From a virus, in IMG/VR virus record IMGVR_UViG_3300010413_000083, positions 1 through 39,961 of that record: a stretch of 39,961 nucleotides of DNA; one strand, written 5' to 3'. Shown here piece after piece: positions 1,946-39,961 of this stretch. Made by a program: the position numbers and the translations under genes. Each line of letters begins with the position of its first letter. The first letter of the stretch is position 1. The notes beneath the pieces are model-generated. The model searched no databases. It saw only the letters and a list, made by a program, of their open reading frames with translations, and was not told the origin of the DNA.

Positions 1946-2315
1946 GAGAATATATCATCCTTACTGGAAGTGGGAAGAGGTTAAATATAATATGTGGGGA
2001 AAGGTAGACAATAGAGATTACTTCCTGCAAAAGGCCATTAAGTTTACTGGAGATCATAAGCTATATGGCGACTTCATGGTGCAAGTAGTCAATCGATGGA
2101 AATATTCATGTGAGCATAATTTATCTAATGTGACACAAAACAGAAGAGCGTGGATAGGGCATGCTGCTTGCGCATTAGCCTTTAGATGTCCTGAAGATAT
2201 AATAAGGGAAGCATGGGGCCACTTAACTGAAGAACAGCAAATATTAGCAAATAATGAGGCTGATAAGGCTATAGAATATTGGGAGAAAAAATATGCCAAA
2301 AAAGAGATTAAATAA
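1929..2315 (+). CDS. Conserved phage-type protein between IbrB-like and IbrA-like genes (128 aa)
   Basis: It overlaps the ParB-like gene by 17 bases and the PP-loop gene by 23 bases, so it is tightly coupled to both. It contains an aromatic N-terminus (HPYWKWEE), a central NRRAWIGHAACALA block and a C-terminal AWGHLTEEQQ...ANNEADKAIEYWE helix. I have the impression of similar proteins beside ParB-like genes in other phages but cannot name a family. The position suggests a third component of the IbrAB-like module. Confidence 0.65.
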   Translation: MSNLIERIYHPYWKWEEVKYNMWGKVDNRDYFLQKAIKFTGDHKLYGDFMVQVVNRWKYSCEHNLSNVTQNRRAWIGHAACALAFRCPEDIIREAWGHLTEEQQILANNEADKAIEYWEKKYAKKEIK

Positions 2316-3507
2316 ATCTGTTTATATTGCAGCGCAAGAGCGTATATCATGGACATTTGATAATTTTGAAAAAATATATTTGTCTTTCAGTGCTGGTAAA
2401 GATTCGACAGTTATGTTGCACTTGGTCGCTGAAGAGGCATTGAAGAGAAATAGGAAATTTGGATTATTATTAGTAGACTTAGAAGGGCAATATAAATTCA
2501 CAATAGAACATGCCTTAAATCAATATGACAAATATAAAGACATTGTAGAGCCTTATTGGATATGCTTACCTATATCTTTAAGAAATGCTGTTAGTGTTTA
2601 TGAGCCTAAATGGATATGCTGGGATAAGGAAAGAAAAGAAGACTGGATTAGATCTTTGCCAGATAATTGTATATCAGATGAAAACTATTTTGAGTTTTTC
2701 TATCACGGCATGGAGTTTGAAGAATTTGTTCCTTTGTTTGGGGAATGGTATTCTCAAGGCAAAAATTGCGCTTGTTTTGTAGGTATAAGGGCCGATGAAA
2801 GTCTGAACAGGTTTAGAACTATAGCAAGCAATAAAAAGACCACTCTTCATGGTAAGCAGTATACAACTAAAGTTACAGATAGCGTGTTTAATGTGTACCC
2901 AATATATGATTGGAAAACAGAAGATATATGGACATATCATGGCAAGTTCAAAGATAAAGAATATAACAAGCTTTATGACTATATGAATAAGGCTGGATTA
3001 TCTATTCATCAGGCTAGAATATGCCAACCCTACGGAGACGATCAGAGAAGGGGCTTATGGCTATTTCATTTGATAGAGCCTGAAACGTGGGCCAAGATAG
3101 TCGCAAGGGTTAATGGTGCTAATTCTGGAGCATTGTACATTCAAGAGAATGGCAATATAAACGGTTACAATAAAATAACAAAACCGGATAATCATACATG
3201 GCAGAGCTTTGCCAGAATGTTTTTAAATTCTCTCCCTCCAAAAACTAAAGAGCATTACGAAAATAAGATATTATTATTTTGTAAGTGGTGGGAGGAAAAA
3301 GGCTACCCTGAAGGGATACCAGACGCAGCGGATTACAACTTGGAGCAGAAGAGAGACGTTCCATCATGGAGGAGAGTATGTAAATCATTATTAAGGAATG
3401 ATTATTGGTGCAAGGGATTAGGATTTAGCCAACATAAAAGTGAGGCTTATACAAAGTATCTTGATTTGATGAGAAGAAGAAAGCTAGATTGGAATAGAAC
3501 TATTTAA
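2293..3507 (+). CDS. PAPS-reductase-like PP-loop ATPase, IbrA-like (DUF3440 type)
   Basis: 404 aa, close to the usual length of IbrA/DUF3440 proteins. The ATP-pyrophosphatase loop SFSAGKDS is at residues 31-38. The C-terminal half has the long Trp-rich region (FARMFLNSLPP, CKWWEEKGYPEGIPD, PSWRRVCKSLLRNDYWCKGL) that I associate with this family. PP-loop enzymes activate a substrate with ATP; PAPS-reductase relatives act on sulfur compounds, and a related enzyme, DndC, takes part in DNA phosphorothioation. Whether this protein modifies DNA, RNA or acts as a regulator cannot be told from sequence. It ends directly at promoter P2. Confidence 0.8.
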   Translation: MPKKRLNKSVYIAAQERISWTFDNFEKIYLSFSAGKDSTVMLHLVAEEALKRNRKFGLLLVDLEGQYKFTIEHALNQYDKYKDIVEPYWICLPISLRNAVSVYEPKWICWDKERKEDWIRSLPDNCISDENYFEFFYHGMEFEEFVPLFGEWYSQGKNCACFVGIRADESLNRFRTIASNKKTTLHGKQYTTKVTDSVFNVYPIYDWKTEDIWTYHGKFKDKEYNKLYDYMNKAGLSIHQARICQPYGDDQRRGLWLFHLIEPETWAKIVARVNGANSGALYIQENGNINGYNKITKPDNHTWQSFARMFLNSLPPKTKEHYENKILLFCKWWEEKGYPEGIPDAADYNLEQKRDVPSWRRVCKSLLRNDYWCKGLGFSQHKSEAYTKYLDLMRRRKLDWNRTI

Positions 3508-7785: not shown

Positions 7786-7861
7786 GAGTCGGTAGCTCAA
7801 CTGGTAGAGCAACGATCTCCAAAATCGTAGGTTGCAGGTTCGATTCCTGTCCGATTCGCCA
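7786..7861 (+). tRNA. tRNA-Trp (anticodon CCA)
   Basis: 76-base cloverleaf. Acceptor stem GAGTCGG/CCGATTC, D-stem GCTC/GAGC, anticodon stem ACGAT/ATCGT with loop CTCCAAA, T-stem GCAGG/CCTGT with TTCGATT loop, discriminator G, and an encoded CCA. G73 and CCA are the expected identity elements for tryptophan. It reads UGG, not UGA. Proteins in this window use TGA as stop throughout, so there is no sign of recoding. Confidence 0.95.
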
Positions 7862-9896: not shown

Positions 9897-10295
9897 ATGG
9901 CTGGAGTAAATAAAGCGATAATAGTTGGAAATTTGGGATCTGATCCAACTGTACGTCACACAAAGAGTGGGCAGGCTGTAGCATCATTCAATCTTGCAAC
10001 TTCTGAGAAGTGGACAGGCAAGGATGGCAATAAAGAGGAAAAAACAGAATGGCATCGAATAGTAGCATGGGGAAAACTTGCCGAAATAGCCGGAGAATAT
10101 CTTACAAAAGGTAAACAGGTATATATTGAGGGTAAACTGCAAACAAGAGATTGGGAAGACACAGACGGGAACAAACGACAAACAACTGAAATAGTCGCCA
10201 ATACTCTCACAATGCTAGGACAGGCTCAGGTAGGCACATCTTCAGATCAGGCAGGATATGGGAAGGATGAAGAGGATGACTTTCCGGATTTTTAA
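9897..10295 (+). CDS. ssb: Single-stranded DNA-binding protein
   Basis: 132 aa. The OB-fold pattern of bacterial SSB is clear: [76 protein letters not shown] short linker leads to an acidic C-terminal tip ending DDFPDF, a variant of the DDDIPF tail that recruits partner proteins. ATG 9897 follows GAGGAGGA. The length is shorter than host SSB (about 175 aa), as usual for phage SSBs. Confidence 0.95.
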
Positions 10296-10316: not shown

Positions 10317-10364
10317 GGGTAACAGACAAGTTAAGCGGACGGCGGAACGCCGGTCCAAAATTAA
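10317..10364 (+). repeat. Half attC-like hairpin after ssb
   Basis: GGGTAAC (10317-10323) resembles a left R box. It is followed by TTAAGC and a strong stem GGAC-GGCG / CGCC-(G)-GTCC with one unpaired G on the right arm. No right GTT-type R box follows; the next gene's AAGGAGGA site begins instead. It could be a decayed attC or a simple hairpin. Confidence 0.35.
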
Positions 10365-10373
10365 GGAGGATTT

Positions 10374-10507
10374 ATGAAAGAGTTTAATATGTGGGTGGCG
10401 ATAACTCTTGTTGGGATTGCGGCGTTTATTGCTGCGGCCTCGTAGGGATCGAAAGAGAAAAAACGGCTCAGATGGCAATAGAACGCGGCTTGATACTCAA
10501 GCCTTAG
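10374..10507 (+). pseudogene. Small membrane-protein gene, apparently frameshifted
   Basis: After a perfect AAGGAGGA, ATG 10374 opens a 23-codon frame (MKEFNMWVAITLVGIAAF...) that is one transmembrane helix and stops at TAG 10443-10445. In the -1 frame the sequence continues as GIEREKTAQMAIERGLILKP and stops at TAG 10505-10507. That second piece looks like the cytoplasmic tail that small phage membrane proteins of this type often carry after the helix. So the gene may be interrupted by a single-base change near 10445, by a sequencing error, or be read by frameshifting. Alternatively the 23-aa protein is complete by itself. Its last stop lies inside a TTAGAAC box. Confidence 0.45.
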
Positions 10508-10553
10508 AACAACATTTTCAGGGGCTTGCGGATTGAAGTCTGAAACCTTATGA
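10504..10553 (+). repeat. Degenerate attC-like site
   Basis: TTAGAAC (10504-10510) holds the upstream stop TAG. A stem TTCAG-(GG)-GGCTT with AAGTC-TGAA follows, then CTTATGA (10547-10553), a poor match to a right R box. Weak by itself; listed because the same TTAGAAC box recurs at 11707. Confidence 0.3.
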
Positions 10554-10571
10554 CAAGAAGGGGATTATAAA

Positions 10572-10970
10572 ATGGGAAAAGAAAATTCAAACGGAGGGGC
10601 AGCAAGTCCCTTGCAAAAACTGGTTATGCCTTTACAGCCTATCGAAAATGGCAGATTTGTGGCAAACCGTATAGTAACCACATTGCTTGATAGTGGCAAG
10701 CTTAGCATGAATGACATCGCTTGTATGGAATTTACAGCGCAAGAGAGGATTCAATTTGCGCAGCTAATTGGATACTCCCTCTCTGGATTTTCTGAACTCA
10801 GCTATGTGGATGATGAAACCTACGTAGCCGCCGAGAAAGCAGCCGAAGGACAAACCGAAGAAGCGGCCAGAAATGAAACTTTGCGTGAACAGCTTGACGA
10901 AGCCAGAAAGGGTGTTAAGGCTGCGGCCAGTGTGCTATTTAGAATACACCCTGATGACTTGCAGGCATAA
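10572..10970 (+). CDS. Conserved phage protein (132 aa), unknown function
   Basis: The ATG follows an AGAAGGGGATT site. N-terminal VMPLQPIENGRFVANRIVTTLLD, central AQERIQFAQLIGYSLSGFSELSYVDDETY, and a C-terminal helix with Ala/Glu heptads (EEAARNETLREQLDEARKG). The FAQLIGYSLSGFSEL block is one I associate with small conserved phage or accessory proteins of unknown function. The stop TAA lies inside GCATAAC, the pattern seen at other attC-like boundaries here. Confidence 0.65.
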   Translation: MGKENSNGGAASPLQKLVMPLQPIENGRFVANRIVTTLLDSGKLSMNDIACMEFTAQERIQFAQLIGYSLSGFSELSYVDDETYVAAEKAAEGQTEEAARNETLREQLDEARKGVKAAASVLFRIHPDDLQA

Positions 10971-10993
10971 CAATTAAGCTCAACGGATTATGC
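10965..10993 (+). repeat. Shrunken attC-like site (GCATAAC...ATTATGC)
   Basis: GCATAAC at 10965-10971 contains the stop codon of the upstream gene and is almost perfectly complementary to ATTATGC at 10987-10993. Only 15 bases separate them, too few for paired L boxes, so this would be a deleted derivative or a simple terminator-like hairpin. Confidence 0.35.
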
Positions 10994-11012
10994 CGTGAAA
11001 GGAGGATAAAAA

Positions 11013-11162
11013 GTGAAGGATGAAAATTTAGATAAGATGGCAGAAGAGATCGAATCAATAATAAGAAAACATGCTGAAAAAAATGAAATCACTTTTGCAG
11101 GTATAATTGGAACCCTTGAGTTAATAAAGGATGATTTCAAAGAAGAGGCGAAGAAGGCATGA
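11013..11162 (+). CDS. Small helical protein (49 aa), GTG start
   Basis: GTG 11013 follows a perfect AAAGGAGGATAA. The product starts KDENLDKMAEEIESIIRKHA and is acidic and helical, with a central hydrophobic ITFAGIIGTLELI. No family known. It is too short for a confident call but the ribosome binding site is excellent. Confidence 0.55.
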   Translation: MKDENLDKMAEEIESIIRKHAEKNEITFAGIIGTLELIKDDFKEEAKKA

Positions 11163-11211
11163 TTCCGATTGCAGCATTTGGTTATAAAACTTAAACCTTA
11201 CAGAGGACAGA

Positions 11212-11406
11212 ATGATAATAAACTACGAATTGTATGGCCGAGCGTTCTTTCATTCGGACTGCTCGGTAAGTGAGTATGGCGGGGGGATAGTGAAGCCGAT
11301 TAAAAACGAAAAAGATGCAACTTTGTGTGAGTGTCTTCATTGCGGCAAAAAAGGATATTACCCTGTTGGCAAAAAGGGCTGCGTTAAAGTTGAGGAAGTT
11401 TTATAA
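11212..11406 (+). CDS. Small Cys-containing protein (64 aa)
   Basis: ATG 11212 after AGAGGACAG. Contains four cysteines: a C-x-C pair in LCECLHCGKKGYYP followed by C-x2-C spacing and KGCVKV near the end, plus one at residue 17. This suggests a small zinc ribbon. The stop TAA is embedded in the TTATAAC left box of an attC-like site, so gene and site form one cassette-like unit. Confidence 0.55.
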   Translation: MIINYELYGRAFFHSDCSVSEYGGGIVKPIKNEKDATLCECLHCGKKGYYPVGKKGCVKVEEVL

Positions 11407-11483
11407 CGGAGCATTCAGCGGCTTTGCTAAATGCTTAAAATTAAATACCGTGTTCCTTGGTCCGCTGGAATAAGTGGTTCTAA
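11401..11483 (+). repeat. attC-like site, type D (copy 1)
   Basis: Left R box TTATAAC (11401-11407) and right R box GTTCTAA (11477-11483) are complementary at six of seven positions. L boxes TTCAGCGG (11414-11421) and CCGCTG-G-AA (11462-11470) pair perfectly with one extrahelical G. The long central segment has its own hairpin GCATT-C-AGC...GCT-A-AATGC. The internal sequence is nearly identical to 37390-37473. The extrahelical G on the right arm is the reverse of a sense-oriented integron cassette. Confidence 0.65.
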
Positions 11484-11506
11484 GGCGCGGACAAAATGGA
11501 GGAATT

Positions 11507-11710
11507 ATGGGAGAAAATGAATCTGTTAGTATTAGACAAGTTCTGAGGTTGGCGAGTAATTCAAGGGGAGAAAAATTAACTATTGAGCAACTACAAGATG
11601 GAAGATATGAGCTTGAAATGATTGATGATGACAATTATCAGCAGAGAATGTTTCTCAGTGAAGCCGATGTTGATTTGTTTATCATGACGGTAGCAGGCAT
11701 AAAGCCTTAG
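11507..11710 (+). CDS. Hypothetical protein (67 aa)
   Basis: ATG 11507 follows GGAGGAATT. Compact alpha/beta-looking protein (VSIRQVLRLASNSRGEKLTIEQLQDGRYELEMIDDD...). No family recognised. It is bounded on both sides by attC-like sites, 11401-11483 before and 11707-11776 after, and its TAG stop lies inside the second site's TTAGAAC box, so it is the best single cassette candidate in this cluster. Confidence 0.6.
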   Translation: MGENESVSIRQVLRLASNSRGEKLTIEQLQDGRYELEMIDDDNYQQRMFLSEADVDLFIMTVAGIKP

Positions 11711-11776
11711 AACGCTTGAGCTAAGGGGCTGATCAAAACGAAGTTTTGACAGTCCCGCTTGAGCGAGTGGTTCTAA
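11707..11776 (+). repeat. attC-like site, type E
   Basis: R boxes TTAGAAC (11707-11713) and GTTCTAA (11770-11776) are perfectly complementary. The inner stem GGGGCTG-(A)-TCAAAAC pairs with GTTTTGA-CAGTCCC, and an L-box stem GCTAA pairs with TT-(G)-AGC, leaving extrahelical bases. The unpaired spacers between R and L boxes are as in integron attC sites. Total 70 bp, within the normal attC size range. Confidence 0.65.
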
Positions 11777-11788
11777 TTTTTTTCGCGC

Positions 11789-11817: not shown

Positions 11818-12552
11818 ATGGAGACAAAGACGATAGCATGGTTTAGCGCAGGAGTGTCAAGCGCAGTGGCAACCAAGCTTGCCATAGACCAGATTGACCA
11901 GATTATTTACACGCATATTGACGACCAACATCTTGACACTTTGCGCTTTGTGCGGGAATGCGAAGAGTGGTTCGGGAAAAAGGTTGAAATTAAGCAGTCG
12001 CCTTATAAGAAAGTGTCTGATGTGCTTCGCGCAGTGAGGTTTCTGAATAGCCCTGGCGGGGCACCATGTACAAATATTTTAAAAAGGCGACTGCGGAAAG
12101 AGTGGGAAGCCGAGAACCAGTTTTTTAATTGGTTCAATTATGTATGGGGCATGGATTCCAATGAGGCCCACAGATGCGAAGAACTCCGAGAGTCCATGCC
12201 GCAAGTCGAACATATTTTCCCGTTGATTGAAAGAGGACTCACGAAGGAAGAAGCGCACAAGATTCTAAAGGCAAGTGGCATCAAACGGCCTGCAATGTAT
12301 AATTTGGGGTATCAAAATAACAACTGTATCGGATGCGTGAAGGGCGGCATGGGTTACTGGAACCATATTCGGGTTGATTTCCCAGAGGTATTTAAAGAGA
12401 GGGCCGAATTGGAACGTGAAATAGGGGCAACATTTATTCACACAGAGAAGGAAGGCCGCGTATATTTGGACGAGCTAGACCCGGAAAGAGGGAGGTTTGA
12501 TCCGCCAGTTGTAGAGGAATGCGGCATTATGTGTGAAATGCTGGCGATATGA
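11818..12552 (+). CDS. PAPS-reductase-like PP-loop protein (second PP-loop gene)
   Basis: 244 aa. The ATP-binding loop is SAGVSSAVA at residues 10-18, in place of the SGGKDS form. Conserved blocks of the phage PAPS-reductase-like group follow: IIYTHIDDQHLDT, GGAPCTNILKRRLRKEWE, WGMDSNEAHR, and a C-terminal NNCIGCVKGGMGYWNHIR with a C-x2-C pair. It probably activates a small substrate with ATP, but the substrate is unknown. The gene is visibly richer in G+C than the neighbouring AT-rich genes, and it follows attC-like sites, so recent acquisition is plausible. It is distinct from the IbrA-like protein at 2293. Confidence 0.8.
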   Translation: METKTIAWFSAGVSSAVATKLAIDQIDQIIYTHIDDQHLDTLRFVRECEEWFGKKVEIKQSPYKKVSDVLRAVRFLNSPGGAPCTNILKRRLRKEWEAENQFFNWFNYVWGMDSNEAHRCEELRESMPQVEHIFPLIERGLTKEEAHKILKASGIKRPAMYNLGYQNNNCIGCVKGGMGYWNHIRVDFPEVFKERAELEREIGATFIHTEKEGRVYLDELDPERGRFDPPVVEECGIMCEMLAI

Positions 12553-12576: not shown

Positions 12577-12606
12577 TAACCATGTAATATGTGTATCACC
12601 GGTGAT
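12577..12606. repeat. 30-bp repeat with palindrome, copy 1
   Basis: Identical over 30 bases to 39169-39198. It starts TAACCATG and contains ATCACCGGTGAT, here extended to a 16-base perfect palindrome GTATCACCGGTGATAC (12593-12608). In both places it ends four or fewer bases before an ATGAAT start codon. It could be an operator-type protein binding site or a cassette 5' end. Confidence 0.8.
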
Positions 12607-35130: not shown

Positions 35131-35469
35131 ATGGCTAAACCAGAAACAATCAAGATTGACGAAGTAGAATATGTAAGAAAGGATAGTATCAAAGCATCTA
35201 TAAAGACCAGCGGAGAGATAAGGATTGTAATCCTTCAAAGAGGTTGGGTAGCAGTTGGTAGGTATTCCAAAAAAGGAGAATATGGCAAGCTTGAAAATGC
35301 TAATATAATCCGAGTATGGGGAACAACTAAAGGGCTTGGAGAAATTGCTATTGATGGGCCTACTTCAAAAACGGTTTTAGATCGGTGTCCTAATATAGAA
35401 TTTCATGAACTCACTACAATAGCAATAATGGATTGTGTGGAGGAAAAATGGGAAAGCAAGCTTATATAG
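35131..35469 (+). CDS. DUF6948-like accessory protein (112 aa)
   Basis: ATG after AAAGGAGGATAAA, first gene after P4. The pattern ETIKIDEVEYVRKDSIKAS, then IVILQRGWVAVGRYSKKGEYGKLENANIIRVWGTTKGLGEIAIDGP and a C-terminal CPNIEFHELTTIAIMDC resembles a small phage family (DUF6948) that I have often seen just before Gly-X-rich proteins. Function unknown. It overlaps the repeat gene by 22 bases. Confidence 0.55.
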   Translation: MAKPETIKIDEVEYVRKDSIKASIKTSGEIRIVILQRGWVAVGRYSKKGEYGKLENANIIRVWGTTKGLGEIAIDGPTSKTVLDRCPNIEFHELTTIAIMDCVEEKWESKLI

Positions 35470-35744
35470 GTGAAGAAGGTCAAGGAGTCGGGTTAAACTC
35501 TGGCTATGGCTATGGCTCTGGCTCTGGCTATGGCTATGGCTATGGCTATGGCTCTGGCTATGGCTATGGCGATGGCTATGGCGATGGCGATGGCGATGGC
35601 TCTGGCTATGGCGATGGCGATGGCTATGGCTATGGCTCTGGCTCTGGCTATGGCGATGGCTATGGCTATGGCTATGGCGATGGCGATGGCTCTGGCTATG
35701 GCTATGGCGATGGCGATGGCGATGGCTCTGGCTATGGCGATTAA
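35448..35744 (+). CDS. Gly-X repeat protein (98 aa)
   Basis: ATG 35448 follows GTGGAGGAAAA. After a short start (GKQAYIGEEGQGVGLNS) the protein is 40 Gly-X pairs, where X is Tyr (19), Asp (13) or Ser (8). All Gly codons are GGC, all Tyr TAT, all Ser TCT, all Asp GAT. Such Tyr/Gly-rich sequences are flexible and can be adhesive or condensate-forming; function here is unknown. The six-base period means any whole-unit slip keeps the frame. Confidence 0.7.
   Translation: MGKQAYIGEEGQGVGLNSGYGYGSGSGYGYGYGYGSGYGYGDGYGDGDGDGSGYGDGDGYGYGSGSGYGDGYGYGYGDGDGSGYGYGDGDGDGSGYGD
35502..35741 (+). repeat. Hexamer array: 40 tandem GGC(TAT/GAT/TCT) units
   Basis: 240 bases, 40 consecutive units of six with no imperfect unit. 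GGCTAT occurs 19 times, GGCGAT 13 and GGCTCT 8. Only the fourth and fifth bases vary. It codes for the Gly-X protein at 35448 in one frame and is open in the other frames too. Confidence 0.95.
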
Positions 35745-36625: not shown

Positions 36626-36875
36626 TCCTCAAGACGCTCCAGACTGCCCAGAAGACAAGTTTAAGGGATACGATAATCCTCTATGTAAATCTTGCCTATT
36701 TCTGAAAGACTGTGCTATAGAGGCACATGAAAAAGGGAAATGCTGGGATGATTGCATACACTGTAAGGCTGATCGAAGAGAGCATGATTCTCATCATTGT
36801 AGGGATGAAGGAATACAACATCAATGTAGATATTGCCAGGAAGATATGATAACTAGGGTGGATTGTGAGGGATAA
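36618..36875 (+). CDS. Cys-rich small protein (85 aa)
   Basis: About eleven Cys in C-x2-C and C-x3-C pairs (PLCKSC, KDCAIE, KCWDDCIHC, HHCRD, QCRYC, VDCEG) and several His; clearly a multi-zinc protein. It resembles the Cys-rich protein at 939 in style. The TAA stop is inside the GGATAAC left box of the attC-like site that follows. Confidence 0.6.
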   Translation: MRDPQDAPDCPEDKFKGYDNPLCKSCLFLKDCAIEAHEKGKCWDDCIHCKADRREHDSHHCRDEGIQHQCRYCQEDMITRVDCEG

Positions 36876-36935
36876 CGCACAAATTAACCGGCCCCGCAGG
36901 GGTCCAGCGCAGCGAGGTTGAATGCCTTGTTATTT
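36870..36935 (+). repeat. attC-like site, type G
   Basis: Left R box GGATAAC (36870-36876), right R box GTTATTT (36929-36935). L boxes ATTAACC and GGTT-(G)-AAT pair with one extrahelical G, the most classical feature of attC. The central part has CCCC-GCA-GGGG. Outer sequence TAACGCACAAATT and TTGAATGCCTTGTTAT resembles the published attC consensus, but in the orientation of its complementary strand. Confidence 0.65.
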
Positions 36936-36961
36936 GCGCTGTAACTTAGAAAGGATATAAT

Positions 36962-37202: not shown

Positions 37203-37389
37203 CAGGGAGATGGCACTATGAAAAACAAAGACGGATCGGTTGAGCAGGATGGCAGTGACGCACCCAAAAGAATACAACGCTTGTATGGAGAAATACGGCA
37301 TGAGGCCAGTGCTTGAGCTTATCGAAGCTGGAAGCTCACCCGCATAAGCAACCATGCCTTTTAGATAGGATGTTTTGCGCGGGTTTGGA
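37203..37389 (+). other. Interval without a confident gene
   Basis: Two overlapping short frames exist: 37218-37316 (32 codons, begins KNKDGSVEQDGSD) and 37249-37347 (32 codons, MAVTHPKEYNACMEKYGMRPVLELIEAGS). The second looks more protein-like but has no ribosome binding site; the first has GGGAGATGG some 10 bases upstream. Neither is convincing. The interval also holds a GTTTTGCGCGGG segment like that near 12560. It is part of the 334-base gap to the next gene, with attC-like sites at both ends. Confidence 0.4.
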
Positions 37390-37473
37390 ACCTAACCATA
37401 GCATTCAGCGGCTTTGCTAAATGCTTCAAATTTAAACCGTGTGTCTTTAGTCCGCTGCAATAAGTGGTTGGCA
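37390..37473 (+). repeat. attC-like site, type D (copy 2)
   Basis: R boxes ACCTAAC (37390-37396) and GTTGGCA (37467-37473), L boxes TTCAGCGG (37404-37411) and CCGCTG-C-AA (37452-37460) with an extrahelical base. The core from AGCATTCAGCGG to TAAGTGGTT is nearly identical to 11411-11479, with a shared unbroken start AGCATTCAGCGGCTTTGCTA. Differences lie in the central part and the outer boxes, as in repeated integron sites. Confidence 0.65.
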
Positions 37474-37798: not shown

Positions 37799-37805
37799 GG
37801 AGCCT

Positions 37806-37867
37806 TGCCAACAAAAAGCTAAATCGACACCCGTAAGGGTGGTCGAAATTTCAGCGCAGGGTTATCT
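37806..37867 (+). repeat. attC-like site, type I
   Basis: Left box TGCCAAC (37806-37812), right box GTTATCT (37861-37867). Stem AGC-T-AAA-TCGA-CACCC pairs with GGGTG-(G)-TCGA-(AA)-TTT-(C)-AGC, loop GTAA, with several extrahelical bases on the right arm. CAGCGCA (37852-37858) and TGCGCTG (37868-37874) can pair and would put the right box in their loop. Confidence 0.55.
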
Positions 37868-37893
37868 TGCGCTGTACAAACTAGGAGGAGTAA

Positions 37894-38082: not shown

Positions 38083-38093
38083 AGAGGATAGCA

Positions 38094-38129
38094 AGATAAC
38101 GTGCTGGGTAACCGGCTGGACAAATAGAA
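38094..38129 (+). repeat. Half attC-like site, type K related
   Basis: AGATAAC (38094-38100) followed by GTGCTGGGTAACCGGCTGG, which resembles the left half of the site at 38472 (GGCTAACGCTTGAGTTCACCGGCTGG). The right half is missing. This looks like a deletion product of such a site. Confidence 0.45.
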
Positions 38130-38144
38130 ACCAAGGAGGATTAA

Positions 38145-38477
38145 ATGACCGAGACAACCGAGAAGGCAAAAGGACTGAAAGACAACGAAGTTGGCCAGTC
38201 CGCTGTTGACCCTAGGGTTAGCCATGAAGACATGGACAACCTGAGACATATGACAGGAGCACAACCTAGATATAAGAAAAGGCAGTGGGGGTTTAGGAAC
38301 CATTATTGTGCAAGCAAAAGTGGAAAAGACCAAGAATCAATGCAGAGGCTTCTTGCTGCCGGATATGTTGTGCAGGGCATTGAGCAGGAACATTCTATTT
38401 TTTTCCACGCGACGGAAACTGGTTGCAAGGCTATTGGAATGAAGCCAGCGCAGATTAGAAATGCACTGAATGGCTAA
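38145..38477 (+). CDS. Hypothetical protein (110 aa)
   Basis: ATG after AAGGAGGATTAA. The N-terminus is acidic; the middle has HMTGAQPRYKKRQWGFRNHYCAS and QRLLAAGYVVQGIEQEHSIFFHATETGCKAIGMKPAQIRN, a winged-helix-like pattern (helix, GYV beta, TETG turn) that I have seen in small phage proteins of unknown role. The stop TAA is inside the left R box of the next site. Confidence 0.6.
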   Translation: MTETTEKAKGLKDNEVGQSAVDPRVSHEDMDNLRHMTGAQPRYKKRQWGFRNHYCASKSGKDQESMQRLLAAGYVVQGIEQEHSIFFHATETGCKAIGMKPAQIRNALNG

Positions 38478-38536
38478 CGCTTGAGTTCACCGGCTGGCCG
38501 CAGTTTGGCCAGTCCGAGTGAAACGACTGGTTATGC
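38472..38536 (+). repeat. attC-like site, type K
   Basis: The best attC candidate in the window, 65 bp. R boxes GGCTAAC (38472-38478) and GTTATGC (38530-38536). Stem GTTCACCGG pairs with CCG-(A)-GTGAA-(A)-C, then CTGGCC pairs with GGCCAG, giving unpaired extrahelical bases on the right arm. The start TAACGCTTGAGTT is like the conserved end of many attC sites such as those of aadA cassettes, here as the complementary strand. Confidence 0.7.
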
Positions 38537-38564
38537 GGGTTTTAATTATTGGGGAGGCACGAAA

Positions 38565-38879
38565 ATGATGACCGACAATGAACAATGGAAGCAAGATTTT
38601 GAGAGGGCCAGGCATTACCGAACCGCGCTTGATGAGATAGCGGGAATGAAAATCCCGTACTGTGACGCTAATGATGTAGCAAATATGATGCGCGACACTG
38701 CAAAGGGGGCGATTGCCAACTTTATGCCGGAAGAATCTCACTTGTGGGCCAGGATAGCAGAGCTTGAAGTTTGTATAAGACAAATGTGTAACAACGCTCT
38801 CGACCTAGGTTATTGTGATATGCGCGACTGCAAAGACTGTAAAACTTTTAAATGCGTGGGGGTAGAAGAAAATGTATGA
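38565..38879 (+). CDS. Hypothetical protein (104 aa)
   Basis: ATG 38565 follows GGGGAGGCACGAAA; a start further upstream would lie in the attC-like site. Two helical segments (NEQWKQDFERARHYRTALDEIAG and SHLWARIAELEVCIRQMCNNAL), with Cys pairs CDMRDCKDCKTFKC at the C-terminus indicating a metal-binding end. More G+C-rich than the middle of the genome. Overlaps the next gene by eight bases. Confidence 0.6.
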   Translation: MMTDNEQWKQDFERARHYRTALDEIAGMKIPYCDANDVANMMRDTAKGAIANFMPEESHLWARIAELEVCIRQMCNNALDLGYCDMRDCKDCKTFKCVGVEENV

Positions 38880-39171
38880 CCGGCATTTAACGATGAGTGA
38901 CGCAAAAGATGAAATGCAAGAGCAACAGCGGCAAGAAAAAATACGCTGGTGGCGTGGCATTGCAGAAAAAACCAAATGGCCCAATTCCGGCGTGTATTTT
39001 GTTCTCCCGGACAACCACCCTGAGGCGACAGAGAATGAAATGATCTTGCTGCATGAAACCGGGCCGGAGATTCCTTTCCGGATTGATGAAGGTGAAAGCA
39101 TGGAAGACATAAAGGCATTTTTTGGAGAAGTGTTCCCGGATGCCGATGTGTTAATTCCTCTTTCCGGCTAA
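38872..39171 (+). CDS. Hypothetical protein (99 aa)
   Basis: Overlaps the previous stop; no strong ribosome binding site, so likely coupled. Helical N-terminus (SDAKDEMQEQQRQEKIRWWRGIAEKTKWPNSG), then beta-like VYFVLPDNHPEAT and PFRIDEGESMEDIKAFFGEVFPDADVLIPLSG. The stop TAA lies in GGCTAACC and begins the 30-bp palindromic repeat. Confidence 0.55.
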   Translation: MYDRHLTMSDAKDEMQEQQRQEKIRWWRGIAEKTKWPNSGVYFVLPDNHPEATENEMILLHETGPEIPFRIDEGESMEDIKAFFGEVFPDADVLIPLSG

Positions 39172-39198
39172 CCATGTAATATGTGTATCACCGGTGAT
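39169..39198. repeat. 30-bp repeat with palindrome, copy 2
   Basis: Identical over 30 bases to 12577-12606. The palindrome is ATCACCGGTGAT (39187-39198); the next two bases differ from copy 1. The following gene begins ATGAATG, just as copy 1 is followed by ATGAATA, so the element has a conserved spacing to the start codon. Confidence 0.8.
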
Positions 39199-39707: not shown

Positions 39708-39961
39708 AAATAATAGGCATTGATCCTGGAACTAAAACAGGTGTAGCGGTATATGATAAGACCCTAGGCAGACTAATTGATGTTTTTATGACTGATTTTT
39801 GGGGAGCATACGAATATATCAAAGACAATCAACATGATATTCTAATCCAAAAAGTTATTATCGAAGTTCCTCAAACTAAGTTCAACTGGCATAAGTCTCA
39901 GCATTCTACCACCTCGGCAAATGTAGGCGGAATATATCGAGAGGCTAATTTATTGGCTGAT
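39704..39961 (+). CDS. RuvC-like Holliday junction resolvase, N-terminal part (continues at 1)
   Basis: TTG start at 39704 overlaps the previous stop (TTGA), with AGGAGGAG about five bases before it. The reading frame runs off the right end and continues at base 145 in the unique sequence (base 39818 equals base 1). The N-terminal IGIDPGTKTGVAVYDK is the RuvC/RNase H first strand with the catalytic Asp. Total about 133 aa with the left part. Confidence 0.85.
   Translation, partial: MKIIGIDPGTKTGVAVYDKTLGRLIDVFMTDFWGAYEYIKDNQHDILIQKVIIEVPQTKFNWHKSQHSTTSANVGGIYREANLLAD
39818..39961. repeat. Terminal direct repeat (right copy)
   Basis: Exact copy of 1-144. With it the non-redundant length is 39817 bp. 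It shows circularity or circular permutation of the assembled molecule. Confidence 0.95.

Follow-up and report, generated by a model that had tools for sequence, protein, structure and literature searches.

Integron-type attC sites inverted relative to their genes in a P22-like phage: two blocks of probable integrase-less cassettes

Bacteria trade genes by means of integrons, which underlie much antibiotic resistance; to our knowledge, the copies in phages have so far been treated as strays. Normally, a cassette has its gene on the same strand as its attC site, and the next gene starts behind R′. The closest described systems are the phage CALINs, clusters of attC sites without an integrase, of TJE1, P12002L, PH101 and MW202573 (Qi et al. 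2023, PMC9892861); attC sites from this published set recombine with IntI1 (PMC9892861). The phage analysed here resembles them in carrying attC clusters and no integrase. However, the structure was termed typical in that study and the polarity of attC and gene was left unremarked, whereas in our analysis PH101 and MW202573 are inverted and TJE1 is canonical. In a literature search whose coverage excluded preprints and most subscription journals, we found no published report of systematic attC inversion or of a separate IntI clade in phages.

The window, that is, the whole stretch of 39,961 nucleotides that was analysed (IMG/VR record IMGVR_UViG_3300010413_000083), is a complete phage genome of a 39,817-bp unit plus an exact 144-bp direct terminal repeat (1-144 and 39818-39961). 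A completeness value is absent from the collection record, yet the terminal repeat marks the contig as a complete genome, which is circular or terminally redundant. The phage is a P22-like podovirus with P22-type portal, head, gp7 ejection and DNA-transfer proteins and a Terminase_3 terminase, whose relatives are numerous (best ∼74% identical). The plus strand carries all the phage genes. Also present are a tRNA-Trp gene (anticodon CCA, 7786-7858) and an ORF at 35433-35744 that consists nearly entirely of GYG/GSG/GDG repeats (12-bp tandem unit, 18 copies, several frames open). The integron integrase profile TIGR02249 had no match in the whole phage genome, and an Rfam scan of the window returned the tRNA and chance matches only, without reporting the attC family.

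We searched the window with attC covariance models trained on bacterial sites only: R1, built from 24 sites, and R2, built from 150 that R1 had picked up in bacterial loci. The full-model R2 search ranked the sites as follows: 11704-11777, 38469-38537, 38091-38224, 11398-11484, 36867-36936 and 37803-37868. Without exception, the sites recovered by R2 across the whole window were on the minus strand and confined to two blocks. The best site, 11704-11777, scored 50.4 bits (E 1.3e-11) with R2 and 52 bits (E 3.4e-12) with R1. Its R boxes are fully complementary (TTAGAAC/GTTCTAA), with unpaired bases on the right arm, and 11707-11776 folded as single-stranded DNA had a z of -5.3, none of 200 shuffles being equally good. 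The site at 38469-38537 was also strong (43 bits, E 1.6e-9 with R2; 30.9 bits with R1). In both, the R″/R′ boxes (AAC ... GTT), spacers, L″/L′ arms and hairpin loop are present (R1/R2), and in the R2 alignment their extrahelical bases, in minus-strand reading, coincide with those on the left arm of a canonical attC. These properties bear on the view that the sites resemble attC only by chance and are instead intergenic terminators, RNA hairpins or operators of the phage. Intergenic hairpins are common in phages, and an operator-like palindrome lies inside a 30-bp repeat described below; however, the E-values of 1e-11 and 1e-9 were obtained against a bacterial attC model that includes box sequence and unpaired bases, and homologous sites of other phages recombine at the expected base. 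Chance resemblance is strongly disfavoured, and we give it next to no probability.

The other sites are weaker. At 11398-11484 (R2 21.5 bits, E 0.0017; R1 E 0.09), minus is the canonical strand and the crossover (R′) box is at the left end, with its AAC at 11405-11407. The 70-nt core of this site (11410-11479) is 83% identical to 37400-37469, within the attC-like minus-strand site 37388-37473 of the other block (R2 9.9 bits, E 3.2). At this identity the two blocks share one attC lineage, so that copying of a site or cassette from one block to the other is probable. An exact search of viral contigs for the 26-bp arm common to the two sites found none. Two further minus-strand sites, 36867-36936 (R2 18.6 bits, E 0.011) and 37803-37868 (R2 18.5 bits, E 0.012; R1 E 0.023), are borderline, since the R2 maximum in a negative control of 66 loci from terminase relatives (∼0.66 Mb) was 18.6 bits. 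The match at 38091-38224 (minus strand, R2 25.3 bits, E 1.5e-4) has a very long loop and represents a partial attC; its left half (38091-38120) is convincing, and the right part, which overlaps the gene at 38145-38477, is doubtful. The genome thus has two model-supported attC in the 10-12 kb block, more in the other block and no IntI, as in a CALIN, which has two or more closely spaced attC and no integron integrase nearby.

A sequence-only reading had earlier proposed that a cassette-like block lies between the SSB and PP-loop genes, with strong attC-like sites at 11401 and 11707 and degenerate ones at 10317, 10504 and 10965. Both strong sites were recovered by the bacterial-only models; the outcome that this reading had set against itself, attC models failing to recover the sites, did not occur. 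The degenerate sites were not recovered by R2 at E <= 10. Among these, 10965 retains only a complementary R-box pair (7-bp hairpin), and 10317 resembles half an attC, possibly R′ and the L′ arm only (10317-10360, minus strand), judged from the sequence only. The idea of a cassette-like block is supported by the model recovery, the extrahelical bases and the arrangement of genes between sites as in cassettes. Its proposed end at the PP-loop gene did not hold, as the block extends through that gene to 12577. The 26 kb said to separate the two clusters is correct in the file; because the genome is circular or terminally redundant, they are also ∼12 kb apart across the join. The inversion of attC relative to the genes, the inclusion of the PP-loop gene and the boundary sequence common to both blocks were absent from that reading.

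As had been noticed, each of the four stops, at 10507, 10970, 11406 and 11710, falls inside a left box. The plus-strand gene at 11212-11406 (64 aa, CxxC motif) ends with TAA inside the left box of the 11398-11484 site, and that at 11507-11710 (67 aa, Shine-Dalgarno GGAGG) with TAG inside the left box of the 11704-11777 site. A 132-aa gene (10572-10970, plus strand) has its stop in a decayed box where the models give no support for an attC. For the ORF that ends at 10507, the start is a GTG with no clear ribosome site, so that its stop means little. Such stops are frequent, since the box itself reads YTAAC or TTAGAAC; among phage cassette ORFs that are led by a Shine-Dalgarno sequence and end near an attC, 69 of 136 have the stop in the left box. 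The 11212-11406 gene has no family and no relatives were found, including in 50,697 phage records, where the 11507-11710 gene also had none. The suggestion that these two genes might occur in other arrays was not borne out, neither the phage records nor a first set of fetched loci giving a match.

The last cassette of this block carries the PP-loop gene (11818-12552, plus strand; PAPS_reduct PF01507, phrog_424). The PF01507 family is also found in the end cassette beside intI in the phage integrons G030 and G032. We compared the PP-loop protein of the window with these two; the Pfam family is common to them but they are hardly alignable. A second PAPS-reductase-type gene (phrog_2302, 2293-3507) lies outside the attC blocks, and its family also occurs near the array of phage contig L089. 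In the second block, the plus-strand gene at 38145-38477 (110 aa, phrog_13561) has its stop in the left box of the 38469-38537 site and only distant relatives, without attC; the last cassette comprises small plus-strand genes at 38568-38879 and 38872-39171. In gene direction, each block ends at a 30-bp exact repeat, at 12577-12606, where it begins with an R-box-like TAAC, and at 39169-39198, where it contains the stop TAA of ORF 38872-39171. Within three mismatches, the genome has just these two copies (0 expected); their homology starts at the TAAC box, with divergence just upstream. This boundary suggests the PP-loop gene as an end cassette. We call the repeat attI-like by position only, because it is placed as expected of an insertion site beside the newest cassette, which it may be. 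The phage attI motif was absent from the window, and the repeat does not resemble the attI sequences of the IntI phages. As its palindrome TATCACCGGTGATA sits just before a start codon, a promoter or operator role is also possible.

The SSB gene (9897-10295) adjoins the first attC block. SSB is expected to influence attC folding; an SSB gene is present in 12 of 50 attC-bearing phage records, and one is also close to the TJE1 attC.

In the window, seven sites are inverted and none canonical: the cassette genes lie opposite to the attC strand, with the crossover box on the stop side, and no gene lies on the attC strand with attC 3′ of it and a start behind R′. We then compared phage and bacterial loci, fetched by similar sequence patterns and representing one broad attC class. 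At 304 phage attC in ∼68 contigs, a Shine-Dalgarno-led gene start was found on the inverted side only at 207 and on the canonical side only at seven. By the same ribosome-site test, bacterial attC gave 11 inverted and 63 canonical. Among 64 scorable phage contigs, 63 were inverted and one canonical, these counts not being independent (L217, L228 and L259 are close relatives, and L215 and L249 overlap). Random positions in the phage loci gave 87 inverted and 43 canonical, the coding-strand bias expected. A cassette content test gave the same phage-bacteria contrast (Fisher p 1e-9). The ribosome-site test was used in place of long-ORF flanking strand and longest-ORF tests, which antisense ORFs in GC-rich phages blurred. 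The class 1 control was read correctly, with attC, aadA2 and dfrA12 on minus and intI1 on plus. Annotated phages MW202573 and H101/PH101 are inverted, and canonical phage arrays exist (TJE1, Va p16, M16-3). The inversion is general in the sampled phage arrays, not universal. The densest phage array in this set comprises 12 attC within 5 kb of a phage fragment, L088 (IMGVR_UViG_3300025326_000605), which also has RecE and DnaB genes.

Of 50 phage records, six, all from IMG/VR, encode a full IntI above the TIGR02249 cut-off. As these contigs also encode tail, endolysin, RecE and primase proteins, the carriers of intI are phages. In all six, the attC lie opposite to the intI strand, as in bacteria, and the cassette genes are co-directional with intI and run into it; in class 1, class 3 and two host-derived prophage integrons, the genes are divergent from intI. 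In a tree with 27 other IntI, those of the six phages group with the IntI of Virus Rctr41k in a single clade (98/95); bacterial sampling in this tree was limited, and the Rctr41k branch is long. The integron-type integrase of this virus (L342, KX853513) is annotated xerD and co-directional with its neighbours, and the model finds no attC there. The conserved side adjoining intI in G024 and G045 begins AAC TTAAATTCAACGACACC, which also precedes intI in G030; we read this sequence as a phage attI. Of the six intI records, four have the candidate phage attI AACTTAAATTCnACGACACC; a AACTnnAATTnnACnnnCAC motif common to all phage attI was absent.

Exchange of whole cassettes is seen in other phages. 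G024 and G045 are ∼99% identical and have three whole-cassette differences, and every junction is within the left-box AAC, where the inverted polarity predicts the crossover. Single cassettes are also common to otherwise unlike phages, with edges at AAC (L221/G030, 98% identical; two other pairs, 87-89%). No cassette common to other phages, and no exchange or empty site, was found for the window's own sites. Cargo of the phage cassettes includes a Mom-like DNA modification protein, a C5 cytosine methylase and an Rv2179c-like exonuclease (L313 8121-8651, L316 8479-9231, L314 8664-9191); it is one of small accessory genes, some of DNA-modification or nucleotide-handling type. The intI genes aside, long DNA matches between phage and bacterial array loci were almost none. 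The main phage-bacteria exception is L115 (JAGVME010000133.1), from a gammaproteobacterial bin, with a phage-type cassette common to L218, L095 and L238; it may be a phage contig within a bacterial bin. The comparisons above also bear on the idea that a piece of a host integron was captured whole, as in Va p16 and M16-3, with nothing phage-specific about it. Such captures are known (PMC9892861), and the intI geometry of Va p16 and M16-3 is observed here. However, in those captures attC and genes share a strand and the genes diverge from intI, opposite to 63 of the 64 scorable phage contigs and to the window, and long phage-bacterial matches outside intI are scarce. We consider a host capture very improbable.

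We favour, as quite probable, the reading that the two blocks are integrase-less integron cassettes (CALIN) in a P22-like phage, drawn from a phage-wide pool of inverted-attC cassettes. The identity and polarity of the attC come from the window, and the unit boundaries and exchange from other phages. Its weak points are that no exchange or empty site was found for the window, whose Sak4 relatives lack attC, that several sites score 18.5-21.5 bits against the control maximum of 18.6, that intI and the phage attI motif are absent, that some phage arrays are canonical and that the cassette genes are without close relatives. The blocks are accessory and probably a recent gain, because they are GC-richer than the rest of the genome (0.439 versus 0.387, sd 0.019) and attC is absent from Sak4 relatives. 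Terminase relatives also lack attC, so that no empty site is available for comparison. It could be that cassettes entered an ancestor and their sites are now decaying relics, with nothing moving in this phage. The three degenerate and several weak sites, the half sites at 10317 and 38091, the missing integrase and the failure to find shared cassettes fit such decay; full arms, boxes and unpaired bases are nevertheless retained at 11704-11777 and 38469-38537, and the higher GC and missing attC in relatives indicate a fairly recent gain. We regard relics as unlikely.

With integrase-less cassettes as the preferred reading, a unit in gene direction runs from the last C of the crossover box through the attC hairpin, a ribosome site and the gene to the opening bases of the next box (YTAA or TTAGAA), from which the stop codon often comes. 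The integrase would recognise the folded plus (coding) strand of attC, with the crossover at AA|C in the left box, and units would therefore move whole. Since the window phage has no integrase, it would be provided in trans, either from an integron of the host or from another phage, co-infecting or resident, that encodes one, and the sites of the window would be active, their cassettes movable by such an enzyme. Inversion would allow one-way phage transcription to read the cassettes, co-directionally with intI where present. It would also make the G-rich coding strand, probably the template of the lagging strand, the recombinogenic one and so favour folding; a recombinogenic strand on the lagging template increases recombination (PMC5371416). 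The presumed recombined (coding) strand is G-rich in 43 of 57 phage loci (p 1.5e-4; window skew +0.20), consistent with this explanation. Expression may be a simpler reason, one-way phage operons needing cassettes and intI to be read together.

More broadly, and with somewhat less assurance, we lean towards phages having an integron system of their own, with an IntI clade, their own attI and an inverted-cassette pool traded between unrelated phages, often without intI; the window would be an integrase-less member with two attI-like ends. If so, inversion keeps the pool expressed in phage operons, and genes captured by a bacterial integron would be antisense to Pc, which would separate the phage and bacterial pools functionally. 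If the systematic flip, the phage IntI clade and the cassette trading hold, this is a working viral gene-exchange system with DNA-modification and nucleotide-handling cargo. It offers a direct test of what determines cassette polarity, promoter direction or strand exposure.

Among bacterial systems, the chromosomal integrons of Gallionellaceae, Methylobacter and relatives have the attC class (GCTCAAGCGGGACTG...CAGCCCCTTAGC) and intI-to-attC geometry of the phages, but they carry cassette genes and attC on one strand, with the genes diverging from intI. Compared with class 1 mobile integrons (IntI1, aadA2/dfrA12), the recombination chemistry is expected to be the same, the IntI of phage G032 being 54% identical to IntI1; class 1 integrons differ from the phage arrays in their canonical polarity, Pc promoter and resistance cargo. 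In the reversed integrons of Treponema (PMC3607928), intI and the cassette genes are co-directional, as in phages. However, intI is there transcribed toward attI and the cassettes follow, whereas phage cassettes are transcribed toward attI and intI, each gene being turned relative to its own attC.
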